Origin: Arenibacter antarcticus
Lineage (GTDB): Bacteria; Bacteroidota; Bacteroidia; Flavobacteriales; Flavobacteriaceae
NCBI RefSeq assembly: GCF_041320605.1
Contig: NZ_CP166679.1
Span: 496,001-560,000, forward strand
Reading direction: 5' to 3'
DNA length: 64,000 nt
A program made the translations under genes and the position numbers. The stretch's first letter is position 1, and every line of letters starts with the position of its first letter. Below are positions 33,280 through 55,307 of the stretch, piece after piece. The notes under the pieces were generated by a model. It did no database searches, was not told the DNA's origin, and saw only the letters and a program-made list of their open reading frames with translations.

Positions 33280-34362
33280 TTAGAAGTTTATGATTTTTTC
33301 TTGATGATTAATAGATTCTTGGTGGATTGCTTTGAACATCTTTAAAATGAACTCTTCGCTCAACCCTTTAGATTCTCCTTCTAGGATCATATTTCCTAAG
33401 ATGGCATTCCATCGATTACTTTGCAATACAGCAACATTCTTTTGTTTCTTCAAGGCTCCAATACTGTCGGAAATCTTCATTCTTTTTCCAAGAATTTCGA
33501 TTACTTGATTATCAATAACATCTATCTGTGCCCTAAGGTTGTTCAAGTTATTTGTGTAATCCATTTCCAAGTTGGTTTCCTTCCTAATCTTCAGGTCTCT
33601 CATTATCTGAACTAATTTGGCTGGAGTAACTTGCTGTGCGGCATCGCTCCAAGCATTGTCCGGATCGTAATGGGTCTCAATCATTAAACCATCAAAATTG
33701 AGGTCCAATGCAGTTTGGGAAACATCAAAGATCATATCGCGCTTACCTGTAATATGGGAAGGATCATTGATTATTGGCAGATCTGGAAATTTGGTCTGCA
33801 ATTCAATAGCCATTTGCCATTCAGGGATATTTCTGTATTTGGACTTTTCATAGGTAGAAAACCCTCTGTGTATTACTCCCAAGTTCTTAATATTAGCCGT
33901 GTACAAGCGCTCTACTGCACCTAACCACAAGGCTAAATCTGGATTTACTGGGTTTTTGATCAATACTATTTTATCAGTTCCTTCTAAGGCATCTGCAATT
34001 TCTTGAACAATGAATGGACTTACCGTAGAACGGGCTCCGATCCATAGCAAATCTATATCGTGCTCCAAAGCTAATTCTACGTGTGCTCGGTTAGCTACCT
34101 CAGTAGCGGTTTTCATTCCGGTTTCCTTTTTCACCTTTTGCAACCACTTTAAACCTAAAGCTCCTACTCCTTCAAACATACCAGGACGCGTTCTTGGTTT
34201 CCAAATTCCGGCCCTAAAGTAATTAACATCGGTATCCTTTAATTCGTTGGCAATTCGCATTACCTGCTCTTCCGTCTCCGCACTACAAGGTCCGGCGATT
34301 ACTAATGGATGGTCCAATTTCATATCGTCCAACCAAGTTCTCATTTGTTTTGAATTTTCCAT
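33280..34362 (-). CDS. Bifunctional DAHP synthase / chorismate mutase
   Basis: Residues about 1-260 form a 3-deoxy-7-phosphoheptulonate synthase of the KDO8P-synthase-like type (AGPCSAETEEQV, FRAGIWKPRTRPGMFEG, GARSTVSPF, INDPSHITGKRD, MIETHYDP). Residues about 275-355 form an AroQ-type chorismate mutase (LNNLRAQIDVIDNQVIEILGKRM, KISDSIGALKK). One polypeptide thus catalyses both the first step of the shikimate pathway and the first step of the Phe/Tyr branch. The mutase domain probably also acts in feedback sensing, as in related fusions. It is the last gene of the operon. Confidence 0.95.
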   Translation of the reverse strand: MENSKQMRTWLDDMKLDHPLVIAGPCSAETEEQVMRIANELKDTDVNYFRAGIWKPRTRPGMFEGVGALGLKWLQKVKKETGMKTATEVANRAHVELALEHDIDLLWIGARSTVSPFIVQEIADALEGTDKIVLIKNPVNPDLALWLGAVERLYTANIKNLGVIHRGFSTYEKSKYRNIPEWQMAIELQTKFPDLPIINDPSHITGKRDMIFDVSQTALDLNFDGLMIETHYDPDNAWSDAAQQVTPAKLVQIMRDLKIRKETNLEMDYTNNLNNLRAQIDVIDNQVIEILGKRMKISDSIGALKKQKNVAVLQSNRWNAILGNMILEGESKGLSEEFILKMFKAIHQESINHQEKIINF

Positions 34363-34370
34363 TTCTATAC

Positions 34371-35231
34371 TTATTGTTTATTAAGTGGTATTCCGTTTAA
34401 TATTTCCTTTATTCTATTGGTATTGCACATCTCATTATAAATGCCTTCGTAATCATCTTCTTCCAACATTTTTTTAAAGAGTTTTAGGTTCCCTATATAC
34501 TCTCCTAAGGTTTCAATTACATTTTCCCGGTTCTGCTTAAAAATCGGGGTCCACATGGCTGGCGAACTTTTTGCCAATCGCACAGTGCTTTCAAATCCAC
34601 TTCCCGCCATGTCAAAAATATCACGTTCATTTCTCTCTTTGTCTATAACCGTCTTTCCTAACATAAAGGAACTGATATGTGATAAATGCGAAACATAGGC
34701 AATATGCTTGTCATGCGCTTCGGGATTCATATATCTAATTCTCATTCCCAACTGCTGAAACAGCTCTAACGCCCTTTCCTGCTGTTTGAAAGCCGTTTTC
34801 TCTATCTCGCAAATAATATTCGTCTTCCCTTGATACAACCCCTCAATTGCCGCAGAGGGCCCAGAGAATTCTGTTCCTGCAATGGGATGACAGGCCAAAT
34901 AGTTCCTTCTATTGGGATGGTTCTCCAAGGTTTTGCATATTAACGATTTTGTAGAACCTGCATCCATAACTATGGTGTCCTCATTTATGGCTTCTAAAAT
35001 AATGGGCAGTTCCCGCACCATAACATCTACAGGAATACTCACAATTACAAAATCCGCCTCGGCTAGTCGACTATAATCCGCTTTTTCATCGATCAAGGAA
35101 AGAGACAATGCCTCCTCCAAATGACGCTCATTGGTATCTACCCCAAAAATACGGACGTTAGGTCGCACTCTCTTAATATCCTTAGCGAAAGAGCCTCCAA
35201 TTAATCCAATTCCTACTACAAATACATTCAT
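34371..35231 (-). CDS. tyrA: Prephenate dehydrogenase
   Basis: NAD(P)-dependent oxidation of prephenate to 4-hydroxyphenylpyruvate for tyrosine. I start at Met 35231 so that the Rossmann motif VVGIGLIGGSFAKD begins at the N-terminus; an in-frame ATG at 35285 would add 18 residues. Later motifs are VSIPVDVMV, DAGSTKS, CHPIAGTEFSGP and the helical HKHIAYVSHLSHISSF. No ACT domain. It lies between the aminotransferase and DAHP synthase genes. Confidence 0.94.
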   Translation of the reverse strand: MNVFVVGIGLIGGSFAKDIKRVRPNVRIFGVDTNERHLEEALSLSLIDEKADYSRLAEADFVIVSIPVDVMVRELPIILEAINEDTIVMDAGSTKSLICKTLENHPNRRNYLACHPIAGTEFSGPSAAIEGLYQGKTNIICEIEKTAFKQQERALELFQQLGMRIRYMNPEAHDKHIAYVSHLSHISSFMLGKTVIDKERNERDIFDMAGSGFESTVRLAKSSPAMWTPIFKQNRENVIETLGEYIGNLKLFKKMLEEDDYEGIYNEMCNTNRIKEILNGIPLNKQ

Positions 35232-35317
35232 ACCTATGTTACTTATACCCTCTACAAACAAAACTAGATCAATGTCATCTAACACATCACCAACCCAACT
35301 TCATTTATTTTTAAGTT

Positions 35318-36460
35318 TTAAAATCTATTTATTGCCTCTTTAATTTTATCGGTCGATACACAAAGGGAGAATCTTATATACCCCTCCCCATTACTCCCAA
35401 ATATAGTCCCTGGAGTAATAAAGATATTTTTCTCGTAAAGCACCTCATCTATAAATTTTTCCGCTGAGGAGATTCCTTCGGGCAATTTTGCCCAAACAAA
35501 CATTCCAACGGCATTTTTGTCATATACACAGTTCAATTTATCTGCCAACTTAAACATCAGCTCCCTGCGCTCGTTATACACCCTGCTTAATTCCTGAAAC
35601 CAAGTATCATCACTGTTCAAGGCAGCTATAGCTCCTTTTTGGATACCGTAGAACATCCCCGAATCCATATTGCTCTTCACTTTTAAAATAGCATCGATAT
35701 GGTTAGCACCTCCCAATACCATCCCTACTCTCCATCCAGCCATATTAAAGGTCTTACTAAGAGAGTTTAGCTCTAGAGCCACCTCTTTAGCTCCCTCAAT
35801 CCTCAAAATACTGATAGGGTGTTCGTTCAACACAAAGCTATAGGGGTTGTCATTTACCAATAAAATATCATTCCTTTTAGCAAAGGCCACCAATTCCTCC
35901 AATTGGGCAACAGTAGCCGTAGCCCCAGTGGGCATATGCGGGTAACTGGTCCACATTATGGTTACTTTGGAAAGGTCCTGGGCTTCCAAGGCTACTAAAT
36001 CTGGGAACCATCCATTATCCTCCACTAGATCATAGTAACGAGGTACAGCCTCTACAAGGTTGGTAACTGAGGTATAGGTGGGATATCCAGGATTGGGGAT
36101 CAACGCTTCATCTCCCTTATTTAAAAAGGCCATACTGATGTGCATAATTCCCTCTTTGGAGCCCATTAATGGCAATACCTCAGTTTGGGGGTCTATAGTC
36201 ACATTAAACTTATTACGATAAAACCCAGCAAACGATTCCCTAAGTTCGGGCAATCCTTGATAACTCTGATATTGGTGTGCCCCTTCATGGACAATTGCCT
36301 CCGTAACTGCATCTAAAACAGCTTGGGAAGGCGCCATATCAGGACTCCCTATTCCCATATTTATCACTGGCCTACCCTCTGCCATTAATCCCCTAACTTC
36401 TCTTAATTTTTTAGAAAAGTAGTATTCCTCGATCGAATTTAACCTATCTGCGATTTTCAT
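35318..36460 (-). CDS. Class I/II PLP aminotransferase of the Phe/Tyr operon
   Basis: Fold-type I aminotransferase of 380 residues. GIGSPDMAPSQ, the PLP-binding Asn/Tyr region NDNPYSF, the Schiff-base lysine in SLSKTFNMAGWRVG, and the C-terminal RFSLC (substrate carboxylate Arg) are visible. Its position between pheA and tyrA, with a 4-bp overlap with pheA, indicates transamination of phenylpyruvate, 4-hydroxyphenylpyruvate or prephenate. Substrate preference is inferred from context only. Confidence 0.93.
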   Translation of the reverse strand: MKIADRLNSIEEYYFSKKLREVRGLMAEGRPVINMGIGSPDMAPSQAVLDAVTEAIVHEGAHQYQSYQGLPELRESFAGFYRNKFNVTIDPQTEVLPLMGSKEGIMHISMAFLNKGDEALIPNPGYPTYTSVTNLVEAVPRYYDLVEDNGWFPDLVALEAQDLSKVTIMWTSYPHMPTGATATVAQLEELVAFAKRNDILLVNDNPYSFVLNEHPISILRIEGAKEVALELNSLSKTFNMAGWRVGMVLGGANHIDAILKVKSNMDSGMFYGIQKGAIAALNSDDTWFQELSRVYNERRELMFKLADKLNCVYDKNAVGMFVWAKLPEGISSAEKFIDEVLYEKNIFITPGTIFGSNGEGYIRFSLCVSTDKIKEAINRF

Positions 36461-37287
36461 AACCCTCTAGCATTTTTATATTCCCCCAATACTTTAAATT
36501 CATCTGCCATAATTTCTAGTAAGGTTTTTGCTTTTTCAAAGTTTTTAAATTTTTCAAAGGTCACATCCACGAAAAAGGAATATTTCCACGGCATCTCAAT
36601 AACTGGCAAGGACTGGATTTTGGTGAGGTTGAGATTACAATCGCTCATCACATTTAAAATCGTTGCCAAACTTCCTCTTTTATGATCCGTTAAAAAACGT
36701 ATAGAGGCTTTATTTATCTCCTCTTCTGGCCAAACCTTGTTCTGTGTTTTAACAATTATAAACCGTGTAGAATTCTCTTTAATGGTCTGTATATCACTCT
36801 GAATAACCTCTAGATCGTAGAGATCTGCAGCCACTTTTGGCGCAATGGCAGCAATTCCCGTTAACTGGTTCTCTCGGATTCTTTTAGCAGTCTCGGCAGT
36901 ATCTACATCCTCTACCAACTTTATATGCCTATAATCCCTAAAAAACTCCTTACATTGCAATAAGGCCATTGGATGCGAATGCACTTCTTTGATATCCTCC
37001 AAAGTCTGACCTTTTAAGGCCATTAAATGGTGATGAATCTTTAAATAGCGCTCCCCTATTATATGCAAATTTTTACTGAATACCAGTGCATAATTAGGAA
37101 TAATGGATCCCGCTATAGAATTCTCTATAGCCATTACGCCACTATCTGCAGTTTTCAACAATAAATGATCTACTAAATCATCAAAGGAAGAACATTCCAC
37201 AAAGTCTACGTTATCCCCAAAATAGTCCTTGGCCACTTGGTGGTGATTAGAACCCTTTATACCCTGTATTGCAATTTTTAATGCCAT
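36457..37287 (-). CDS. pheA: Prephenate dehydratase
   Basis: Converts prephenate to phenylpyruvate. The catalytic domain (about 1-180) includes GIKGSNHHQVA, MAIENSIAGSI and the TRF motif (NSTRFIIV). An ACT regulatory domain (about 195-276) starts at RFLTDHKRGSLATIL and has the ESRP-like segment KIQSLPV, suggesting feedback by phenylalanine. It is the first structural gene after the Phe/Tyr-rich leader and attenuator, and the head of the four-gene aromatic operon. Confidence 0.95.
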   Translation of the reverse strand: MALKIAIQGIKGSNHHQVAKDYFGDNVDFVECSSFDDLVDHLLLKTADSGVMAIENSIAGSIIPNYALVFSKNLHIIGERYLKIHHHLMALKGQTLEDIKEVHSHPMALLQCKEFFRDYRHIKLVEDVDTAETAKRIRENQLTGIAAIAPKVAADLYDLEVIQSDIQTIKENSTRFIIVKTQNKVWPEEEINKASIRFLTDHKRGSLATILNVMSDCNLNLTKIQSLPVIEMPWKYSFFVDVTFEKFKNFEKAKTLLEIMADEFKVLGEYKNARGL

Positions 37288-37327
37288 TTATATTTATTTC
37301 CAAGAAAAATTTACTCTAGTTAATTCC

Positions 37328-37357
37328 AAAAAAAAAGTCCCGGTTTTCACGGGACTT
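37328..37357 (-). terminator. Attenuator terminator upstream of pheA
   Basis: On the minus strand AAGTCCCG pairs with CGGGACTT (plus-strand 335-342 and 350-357 of the 37-kb block, i.e. 37335-37342 / 37350-37357), 7-nt loop, followed by an unbroken T-run of about nine. It sits 27 nt after the leader-peptide stop codon and 41 nt before pheA. Its 5' arm can instead pair with CATGGGACT near the end of the leader peptide (9 pairs, one G-U), giving a mutually exclusive antiterminator. Confidence 0.88.
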
Positions 37358-37383
37358 CTATCTATATATACATTTAAAATACG

Positions 37384-37455
37384 CTAGAACAGTCCCATGC
37401 CTCTTTGAAAAAAGAAGTAAAAATAAAAACCATTCCAGAAATATTGCTTTGTCAT
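37384..37455 (-). CDS. Phe/Tyr-rich leader peptide of the pheA operon
   Basis: A 23-codon frame starting ATG at 37455 and ending TAG at 37384-37386. The peptide begins MTKQYFWNGFYFYFFF; Phe is at 6, 10, 12, 14, 15, 16 and 23, Tyr at 5, 11 and 13, Trp at 7. Ten of 23 residues are the end products of the operon that follows. The last codons contain GGGACT, which is complementary to the 5' arm of the terminator 27 nt downstream. In effect this is a pheL-like control peptide. A -7-type element occurs upstream. It is far shorter than usual gene-finder limits. Confidence 0.85.
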   Translation of the reverse strand: MTKQYFWNGFYFYFFFQRGMGLF

Positions 37456-37505
37456 TTTCTCGTAAAACTTGGGCTAAAGTAGTAATTAATTCTAAAACTC
37501 CGCGT

Positions 37506-37553
37506 CAAAAATATTCTTTTTTTACATTTATAAGTTTTAGGGATGCAAATTTA
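37506..37553 (-). promoter_or_regulatory. Candidate -7 elements for the pheA leader transcript
   Basis: Two matches to TAnnTTTG on the minus strand: TATTTTTG (37506-37513), about 50 nt before the leader ATG, and TAAATTTG (37546-37553), about 90 nt before it. Neither has a clear TTG at the best distance, so I cannot choose. The rest of 37554-37761 holds no visible gene; it also serves as the upstream region of the divergent gldA. Confidence 0.4.
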
Positions 37554-37779
37554 GGGAATCAGCCCCTATTTCCCACCTAAATTACGAATCCCACACCTAC
37601 ACTATTTCATAATAGTCTTATTTCCAATATTTACCATCCCCTTCCCAAACAAAAAACTTCTTAAAACAGACAAACGTCAGAGCAAAATCAATGGGAATTT
37701 ATTGATAAACTTAACGGATCAATTCACCTAAACAACAGGGATTGGCGAATTTGCCTTATTTTTGATAAAAAGCAACTTT

Positions 37780-49885: not shown

Positions 49886-50190
49886 GGTCTTTCCCAATGC
49901 CCTCCAAAAAAGAGGGAACTTATTTTATTATTTAATATTCTCTTGATCATTACGCTCCCACAATGGGAAAAATAATAACTGGCCCTGGCAAACCGATTAT
50001 AGATTATGGCGTTTCCCAAATGGGACCGGGCTATCCACTTAATTTTTTTAGATTAAACACCTAAAAAAGATATCGCTCCTATCCCTAACGCAGTAAAACT
50101 TCACCGTTGGTCATATACCTATTAAATGTATTTCTAACCTCATTTCCACATCGACAAATCTTCACATTAGCTAATTAACAGATTTACACA
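49886..50190. other. Structured gap between metH and metF
   Basis: No gene seen. Nested inverted repeats at about 49981-50033: outer GCCCtGG / CCGGGC, inner AAAC / GTTT, and TCCCA / TGGGA at 50014-50025; also CCCA / TGGG near 49967. Just before metF a CCCTC / GAGGG hairpin contains the possible ribosome-binding site GGAGGG. Translational control of metF is conceivable. Confidence 0.4.
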
Positions 50191-54959: not shown

Positions 54960-55081
54960 AATATTAAAAAATAAATTCTCCTAAAATCCCAACATTCTAA
55001 TTGGGTGGAGTATAATCAAGTAAGGAAGAGTTTAAGACCAAGGTCTTTCTTTCAGTTATCTATTCCGGATAAAAAACGGAT

Positions 55082-55202
55082 ACTATCGTCTTAGACACAG
55101 ATTAGAACGTAGCACCTTCTTTATACTTCCTAAAAGATTGGGAGAGAAACAAAGGGTTGCTAAGGCTTCATTGGGTCTAATCCCTCCGCCTTTCTTGATA
55201 AC
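55082..55202 (-). ncRNA. SAM-I riboswitch aptamer
   Basis: Read on the minus strand: GTTATCAAGAAAGG (55189-55202) starts P1; GGAGGGA (55181-55187), GACCCAATGAAGCC (55164-55177) and AGCAACC (55155-55161) form the conserved P2/J region; AAGGTGCTA (55110-55118) gives P3/J3-4; GATAGT (55082-55087) closes P1 with GTTATC. These are the invariant blocks of the S-box. It lies upstream of metH-dehydratase-metH-metF. SAM binding would be expected to switch the operon off. Confidence 0.93.
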
Positions 55203-55307
55203 GTTTTCAAATTGATAATGAACAGGGTACAAAGTAACGTAACAGTAATTGTAAAAGCAAGGAAAGCTCAGTTTTTTTTGACCTAGTTAGGTAGGTATGG
55301 AACCATA
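55203..55307. other. Promoter region of the methionine operon
   Basis: No gene seen between the aptamer and the terminator of the ferredoxin-NADP reductase gene. The promoter that drives the riboswitch must lie here, but I cannot place a confident TTG / TAnnTTTG pair. Confidence 0.35.

Follow-up and report, generated by a model that had tools for sequence, protein, structure and literature searches.

What controls pheA, the prephenate dehydratase gene of Arenibacter antarcticus, and the genes that follow it? The question is raised by a 64,000-nucleotide (nt) stretch of the genome, called the window below (positions 496001–560000 of the single 4.69-Mb contig, G000:C1). On its minus strand, a very short frame rich in phenylalanine (Phe) and tyrosine (Tyr) codons and an intrinsic terminator separate a promoter box from pheA. 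We consider it very probable that this pheA leader is a ribosome-mediated transcription attenuator. The reading rests on the parts of the locus, their conservation, the selection on the frame, the co-variation of the pairings and the modelled geometry.

In minus-strand order, the locus showed a −7 box, the leader ATG at position 37455, 23 codons, the TAG at 37386–37384, the terminator at 37359–37333 and pheA from position 37287. The leader frame (37384–37455) would encode the peptide MTKQYFWNGFYFYFFFQRGMGLF with seven Phe and three Tyr, exactly as an earlier note on this DNA had described it. The terminator announced in the same note was also present, with a stem of 10 pairs (one G-U) and a T run (37328–37336) at which a transcript some 140 nt long would be expected to end. 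Its placement between a leader and the first gene is that of leader-peptide attenuators. Near the end of the frame, segment 2 (CATGGGACT, 37399–37391) could pair over nine positions, one of them a G-U, with segment 3 (AGTCCCGTG, 37356–37348), which overlaps the 5' arm of the terminator. These are the two strands of the antiterminator that had been proposed; the terminator itself is the pairing of segments 3 and 4.

Conservation of the Leader Frame

The earlier note had suggested comparing the region upstream of pheA among relatives. In the best 80 of 96 relatives, an aromatic leader of 19–26 codons and a terminator preceded pheA in all 80 cases; the frame, its aromatic codons and the terminator were kept, and the terminator and antiterminator showed paired changes. 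The closest relatives by PheA were Arenibacter species (84–88% identity) and Cerina (82%), the source genome or a very near one being possibly excluded from the comparison. A second sample consisted of the DNA upstream of pheA in 98 further genomes, where recognition was partly by eye. The tests described below as covering 152 loci used 81 + 71 loci; nine loci without a recognised leader were excluded, and twelve leaders were assigned by eye where the automatic choice was wrong or too long. Co-variation and codon changes were examined in an alignment (A1) of 71 distinct rows, restricted to the 23-codon leaders of the 80 closest relatives and the window.

In this alignment, the conserved aromatic codons were found within codons 5–16. 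Eight of them, chosen for being conserved, showed 46 synonymous and only 4 non-synonymous single-base departures from the commonest codon. The ratio was 60 to 26 for codons 5–16 overall, and 51 to 96 for codons 17–23. In 65 distinct leaders, codon 13 was always a Tyr codon and varied between TAC and TAT only, whereas codon 23 was leucine in 34, Phe in 30 and valine in 1. The earlier note had counted seven Phe codons in the frame. The modelled geometry forbids stall sensing at codon 23 and its amino acid is variable, and it was therefore dropped; the useful set is reduced to six Phe and three Tyr. The control codons 5–16 (37408–37443), read from the codon table and the modelled stalls, also include one tryptophan (Trp) codon. 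A short translated frame rich in codons for the products of the pathway is expected of a leader-peptide attenuator, and the 46:4 synonymous drift, together with the presence of both Phe and Tyr in 63 of 63 non-redundant leaders, argues that there is one here.

Taken singly, the features of the locus were unremarkable. The genome had 47 runs of six Phe or Tyr codons and 55 runs of the reversed pattern; such runs were useless as a search key in this AT-rich genome. Terminator-like sites within 10 kb numbered 8, with 7.9 expected. To judge from the sequences, the evidence that the element is real is comparative. The ordinary numbers of aromatic runs and terminators would suit another explanation, in which the terminator belongs to the end of a different transcript or of a small RNA, and the run of aromatic codons is incidental to T-rich DNA. 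This explanation is barely credible in view of the synonymous drift of the frame, of a nearest upstream gene lying on the opposite strand, of an antiterminator pairing that exceeds its synonymous and decoy controls (see below) and of a promoter box just upstream of the leader. The box, TACTTTAG (37474–37481, minus strand), fits the consensus TAnnTTTG and predicts a transcript start at about 37469. In 133 of the 152 loci, the motif TAnnTT[TA][GC] was found no more than 75 nt before the start of the leader, at a distance of 24–27 nt in 105 of these 133; the next 75 nt further upstream had it in 18 of 121 loci. In Flavobacterium psychrophilum, the TAnnTTTG consensus is placed at −12 to −5 in the accessible text of a published study (PMC9723704).

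Terminator and Antiterminator

The leader terminator had the most G-C-rich long stem of the eight terminator-like sites. Over the 71 rows, 93.4% of its 710 cells were paired (at most 55.9% in slid versions). Five pairs were changed on both sides, a number reached in 10 of 500 shuffles (which gave 3.8), and the double-change cells numbered 51 against 15.9; the number of pair types in the 71 rows was not higher than in the shuffles. The antiterminator was paired in 85.9% of 639 cells, with slid versions at 52% or below, and showed 19 double-change cells as compared to 9.9 in shuffles, none of the 500 reaching this number.

The specificity of the antiterminator was addressed in two ways. When segments were exchanged between dissimilar leaders, the native pairing of segments 2 and 3 was stronger than the swaps were on average in 144 of 152 loci, with mean values of −12.8 and −9.0 kcal/mol, respectively. 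Among the 63 non-redundant leaders, the pairing exceeded the mean of synonymous recodings of the leader tail in 59. Decoys with a reversed or a swapped partner gave 36 and 45 of 63, and the use of the codon usage of the window genes again gave 59 of 63.

A third helix was visible in the same region. Segment 1 (CTGGAATGGTTTT, 37438–37426, codons 6–10) could pair with positions 37396–37384, a stretch that overlaps segment 2. This helix was paired in 91.5% of 923 cells, and its pairing exceeded the synonymous recodings in 59 of the 63 leaders (58 with the other codon usage), with two decoys at 33 of 63 each. Co-variation was less clear: four pairs carried double changes, a number reached by 74 of 500 shuffles, and the 20 double-change cells compare with 11.7 in shuffles and with 22 in one slid control, which was itself only 49.6% paired. 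The pairing of segments 1 and 2 is a probable protector helix, although the untranslated RNA still often forms the antiterminator (see below). Both this helix and the promoter box are additions to what the earlier note had described.

Ribosome Position and the Proposed Switch

The spacing of the elements was consistent with a decision made by the ribosome. In the 152 loci, the last core aromatic codon, counted from its first base, was a median of 12 nt away from segment 2 (interquartile range 10–13), which ended a median of 4 nt before the stop codon. A ribosome was modelled with an assumed footprint of 15 nt behind and 12 nt ahead of the first base of the A-site codon. In the RNA of the window folded up to the decision point, 8.9 antiterminator pairs were expected with the ribosome at codons 1–15, 7.3 at codon 16, 3.4 at codon 17, 0.8 at codon 18 and 0.0 from codon 19 through the stop. 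In this model, stalls at codons 1–16 leave the antiterminator free and a ribosome between codon 19 and the stop blocks it. The logic put forward earlier, in which a stalled ribosome permits the antiterminator and a ribosome at the stop favours the terminator, was reproduced by these modelled positions. With at least five expected pairs taken as a formed antiterminator, a mid-core stall gave one at the decision point in 149 of 152 loci and a stall on the final core codon in 125; with the ribosome at the stop, the number was 9. In these calculations the antiterminator and the terminator would exclude each other, and a ribosome on the stop codon would hide the antiterminator, as expected of a leader-peptide attenuator.

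An alternative is a leader that binds a ligand or a protein and senses Phe or a product of the pathway independently of translation; in its favour, the accessible part of a 2021 paper includes flavobacterial pheA among the genes preceded by a conserved structured 5' element without an Rfam match (PMC9723704). This alternative is very improbable here. At the leader, every Rfam family stayed below its gathering score; what is conserved is a coding frame, and the position of a ribosome explains the mutually exclusive helices.

Several observations weigh against ribosome-mediated attenuation or limit its support. The four double-change pairs of the antiterminator were matched or exceeded by 147 of 500 shuffles, its two outer pairs were not formed in 40 and 38 of the 71 rows, respectively, and the shuffle statistics count relatives as independent. 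The native pairing of segments 2 and 3 was no better than the swaps in 8 of 152 loci; in some of these eight, the stretch compared ended early, at the stop. At the decision point and without a ribosome, the antiterminator still formed in 100 of the 152 loci, that of the window included, and a shut-off of untranslated leaders is therefore unsupported. Wherever the ribosome was placed, the full-length RNA at equilibrium favoured the terminator in almost every locus, and with a mid-core stall the terminator was preferred in 144 of 152; in the window the values with this stall were 0.43 for the terminator and 0.52 for the antiterminator. Equilibrium folding was uninformative as a test. Since the terminator is nearly always favoured at equilibrium, the switch must be kinetic and decided during synthesis.

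We propose the following course for the attenuator, in which transcription start, translation, stalling, termination and the response to Phe and Tyr are inferred from the elements described above. RNA polymerase would begin some 14 nt upstream of the leader's ATG. With charged transfer RNAs (tRNAs) for Phe and Tyr in plenty, the leading ribosome would reach the TAG and cover segment 2, the terminator hairpin would form and a short RNA of about 140 nt would be released. With tRNA-Phe or tRNA-Tyr scarce, the ribosome would stall within codons 5–16 and leave segment 2 free to pair with the 5' arm of the terminator before segment 4 is made. The antiterminator would then allow read-through into pheA and the genes for the aminotransferase, TyrA and DAHP synthase/chorismate mutase. 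In a leader that is not translated, the helix of segments 1 and 2 probably competes with the antiterminator.

Amino Acids Probably Sensed by the Leader

All 63 non-redundant leaders had at least three Phe and at least two Tyr. The leaders were detected by their combined Phe and Tyr content, and their richness is partly by construction; Tyr alone was not required. The core residues in these leaders were Phe (316), Tyr (199), asparagine (50), Trp (24), threonine (21), serine (15), glycine (13), cysteine (2), leucine (1), isoleucine (Ile; 1) and a few others.

The same attenuator might sense Phe only, the Tyr codons being either spacers that do no harm or neighbours of Phe codons with no effect. 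Escherichia coli pheL lacks Tyr and responds to Phe only, and Phe outnumbers Tyr by 316 to 199 in the cores. A Phe-only leader should, however, accept leucine, serine or cysteine about as readily as Tyr, and the other one-step neighbours of Phe codons (leucine, cysteine, isoleucine and serine) are rare in the cores. Also against it are the invariably Tyr codon 13, the presence of tyrA within the operon and the existence of a Tyr-only leader before a phenylalanine hydroxylase gene (see below). We regard sensing of Phe alone as unlikely. The presence of Tyr in every leader and the rarity of the other Phe-codon neighbours favour, without proving, joint sensing; the idea that Tyr codons placed beside Phe codons reflect it had been advanced in the earlier note, and joint Phe and Tyr sensing now appears likely from the codon content. 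Trp, a possible third sensed amino acid, was present in 35 of the 63 leaders. Part of the TGG at codon 7 may, however, be of use to the helix of segments 1 and 2.

Leaders before other genes provided single cases for comparison. Two family genomes without a pheA match were nevertheless matched by a covariance model of the leader (R1, see below). In one of them, G039, a leader with four Tyr and no Phe (MKNLNNTYYYYPILTRRIGQ) and a terminator preceded a Biopterin_H protein of the phenylalanine hydroxylase type (E 1.3e-43; locus L192). In the other, G030, a leader with two Trp, one Phe and one Tyr (MTNNNTWWSNSKFYLKR), likewise with a terminator, was found before DAHP synthase and chorismate mutase (L193). 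In the source genome, a histidine leader (MKNNRTHHHHFFTFVQAS) with a terminator was located upstream of hisG (L173, G000:C1:3742694-3746158), and an Ile leader (MKNITIISSIISAIVIIASAEGKL) with a terminator before an acetolactate-synthase-like thiamine-pyrophosphate enzyme (L206, G000:C1:651400-652949, minus strand). The antiterminator of this Ile leader was weak in a quick check (−9.3 kcal/mol). A second small Ile-rich frame, MKTSAIISIIIICPSG, was located after the terminator of MKNITIISSIISAIVIIASAEGKL and before the acetolactate-synthase-like gene, possibly a tandem Ile control. In these cases, which do not amount to a survey, the predicted leader codons fit the following gene.

Distribution of the Leader

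The second sample was assembled from several searches. A search of the phylum gave pheA in 102 of 118 genomes (source included), of which 29 were taken and 72 matches at 41% identity or less were left out. In the order, 17 of the 21 new genomes with a match were taken, the other four being at 29–32% identity. Overall, a leader and a terminator preceded pheA in 79 of the 98 further genomes.

In the same family, 60 of 62 genomes had both elements; the exceptions were G020, where no leader was seen, and G032, whose 382 nt examined before pheA showed none. The leader of G012 was about 525 nt before pheA (L104/L198), with apparent repeated hairpin units between them (by eye); locus L104 had been among those excluded and turned out to carry its leader further upstream. 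In other families of the order, seven of eight genomes above 1 Mb whose PheA was similar had a leader and a terminator; these seven order-level leaders and that of G012 were not part of the 152-locus tests. The seven genomes of about 0.6 Mb in the order (L183–L189), which to judge by their size and order are probably insect endosymbionts, had pheA and neither leader nor terminator. The TAnnTTTG box was still present in all seven (by eye). Order members with a divergent PheA (34% identity or less) had no leader in four of four cases. Elsewhere in the class, 10 of 12 genomes had both elements, and in the two class members without a leader pheA was located directly behind an aroA-like frame (by eye). 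In other classes, two of five genomes had a leader and a terminator, both with an unusually similar PheA (43–44% identity). These two loci, L153 and L154, carried a Phe/Tyr leader, and members with the same family label had a PheA at only 29–36% identity; it is possible that the operon was transferred along with its switch, or that the contigs were mis-binned. No locus was seen with the hairpin kept and the frame lost, a combination that the earlier note had named as speaking against its proposal: the loci without a leader were also without such a terminator before pheA (partly by eye).

A covariance model, R1, was built from the 71 alignment rows. It matched 49 of 60 family genomes (source included) at E ≤ 0.01, and a match was located upstream of pheA in 45 of the 49. 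In the source genome, the pheA leader was the sole strong match (E 5.5e-27), the best of 16 weaker ones having an E-value of 0.02. As candidates for a second copy of the leader, three of these 16 were inspected and proved to be one Ile leader and two ordinary-looking terminators. Fourteen matches in other family genomes were inspected as well. They included the displaced pheA leader of G012 and the leaders of G039 and G030, and the other eleven had no recognised leader. One R1 match, L197, had a small frame that was not aromatic upstream of a transporter-like protein.

A wider reading, somewhat more probable than not, is that the element is an old joint sensor of Phe and Tyr, in some lineages perhaps of Trp too, present across much of the class and gating both the entry and the branch enzymes of aromatic synthesis. 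The attenuator would provide a clear model for the control of aromatic amino-acid synthesis in a large bacterial group with environmental and host-associated members, in which one leader would read two end products. The bacteria of this group mostly initiate translation without a Shine-Dalgarno sequence. Ribosome-mediated attenuation needs the polymerase and the ribosome to be in pace, and its deep conservation would therefore be indirect evidence for the coupling of transcription and translation. Natural variants, namely the genomes of about 0.6 Mb that lack the leader and the genes preceded by leaders of a different codon content, offer a direct test of the codon-to-product rule. An Rfam family could also be seeded from the alignment.

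Operon and Neighbouring Elements

The genes behind the leader were all on the minus strand. The Pfam domains bore out the four-gene Phe and Tyr operon ending in DAHP synthase, in identities and order: pheA, prephenate dehydratase (36457–37287; PF00800, E 1.6e-56), a class I/II aminotransferase (35318–36460; PF00155), a prephenate dehydrogenase of the tyrA type (34371–35285, the start as mechanically listed; PF02153 and PF20463) and a DAHP synthase fused to chorismate mutase (33280–34362; PF00793 and PF01817). The mechanically listed frames of adjacent genes overlapped or were at most about 32 nt apart. A relative of the aminotransferase was found on the same strand in the pheA loci of all 80 relatives. 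Two other RNA elements were visible elsewhere in the window, an S-adenosylmethionine (SAM) riboswitch at 55053–55204 on the minus strand (RF00162, 61.9 bits) and a Flavo-1 RNA at 50020–50099 (RF01705, 42.5 bits, slightly above the gathering score).

Comparison with Known Systems

In the open-licence literature, no description was found of a Phe/Tyr leader of pheA in Bacteroidota; work by Lopatovskaya et al. in 2010 may cover part of this subject. The statement in the earlier note that few such leaders are reported in Bacteroidota has to be qualified by the presence of Bacteroid-trp in Rfam and by the pheA element named in the accessible text of PMC9723704. For amino-acid operons of F. psychrophilum, the same text reports strong clues for leader-peptide attenuation; for its pheA element, the accessible part gives neither a leader sequence nor a statement on Phe or Tyr nor a mechanism. 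Small frames reminiscent of leader peptides are reported in Bacteroides in the part available of another study (PMC7366714).

Bacteroid-trp (RF01692) was listed as a cis-regulatory motif of Bacteroidetes by Weinberg et al. 2010 (Table 1, PMC2864571, accessible part). It resembles the pheA leader as a cis-regulatory element of this group, and differs in its amino acid and in its sequence. No RF01692 match reached the gathering score in the window, and none was found at 37250–37700 with E-values up to 10. The sole match in the source genome, outside the window, covered a Trp-Trp-Trp leader (MKNSISNTWWWNNLRKTS) and its terminator (by eye).

The textbook attenuator is that of E. coli pheL, which acts on Phe alone. 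The E. coli pheL-pheA leader family (RF01859, Phe_leader) gave 18.8 bits and an E-value of 1.2 at the Arenibacter leader, as compared to a gathering score of 55, and both RF01859 and RF00513 were at chance level only. The likeness is in the organisation, with a Phe-rich leader, a terminator and a competing antiterminator before a prephenate dehydratase gene, and in the decision-point calculation, which ranks the states in the same way. The E. coli peptide has 15 amino acids with seven Phe and no Tyr, and its segment 2 follows the stop (by eye), whereas that of Arenibacter overlaps the last codons. For E. coli, the calculation gave 7.9 and 6.0 antiterminator pairs with stalled ribosomes and no pairs with the ribosome at the stop; unlike the Arenibacter leader, that of E. 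coli also had none without a ribosome. At equilibrium, the E. coli leader flips fully with a mid-core stall and not with a stall at the last Phe, whereas the flavobacterial loci mostly do not flip. In contrast to E. coli pheA, the Arenibacter operon also includes tyrA and DAHP synthase. The kind of switch is known and the pheA element is already in print; what is new is its reading as a Phe and Tyr leader, the depth of its conservation, its geometry and its re-coding before other genes.
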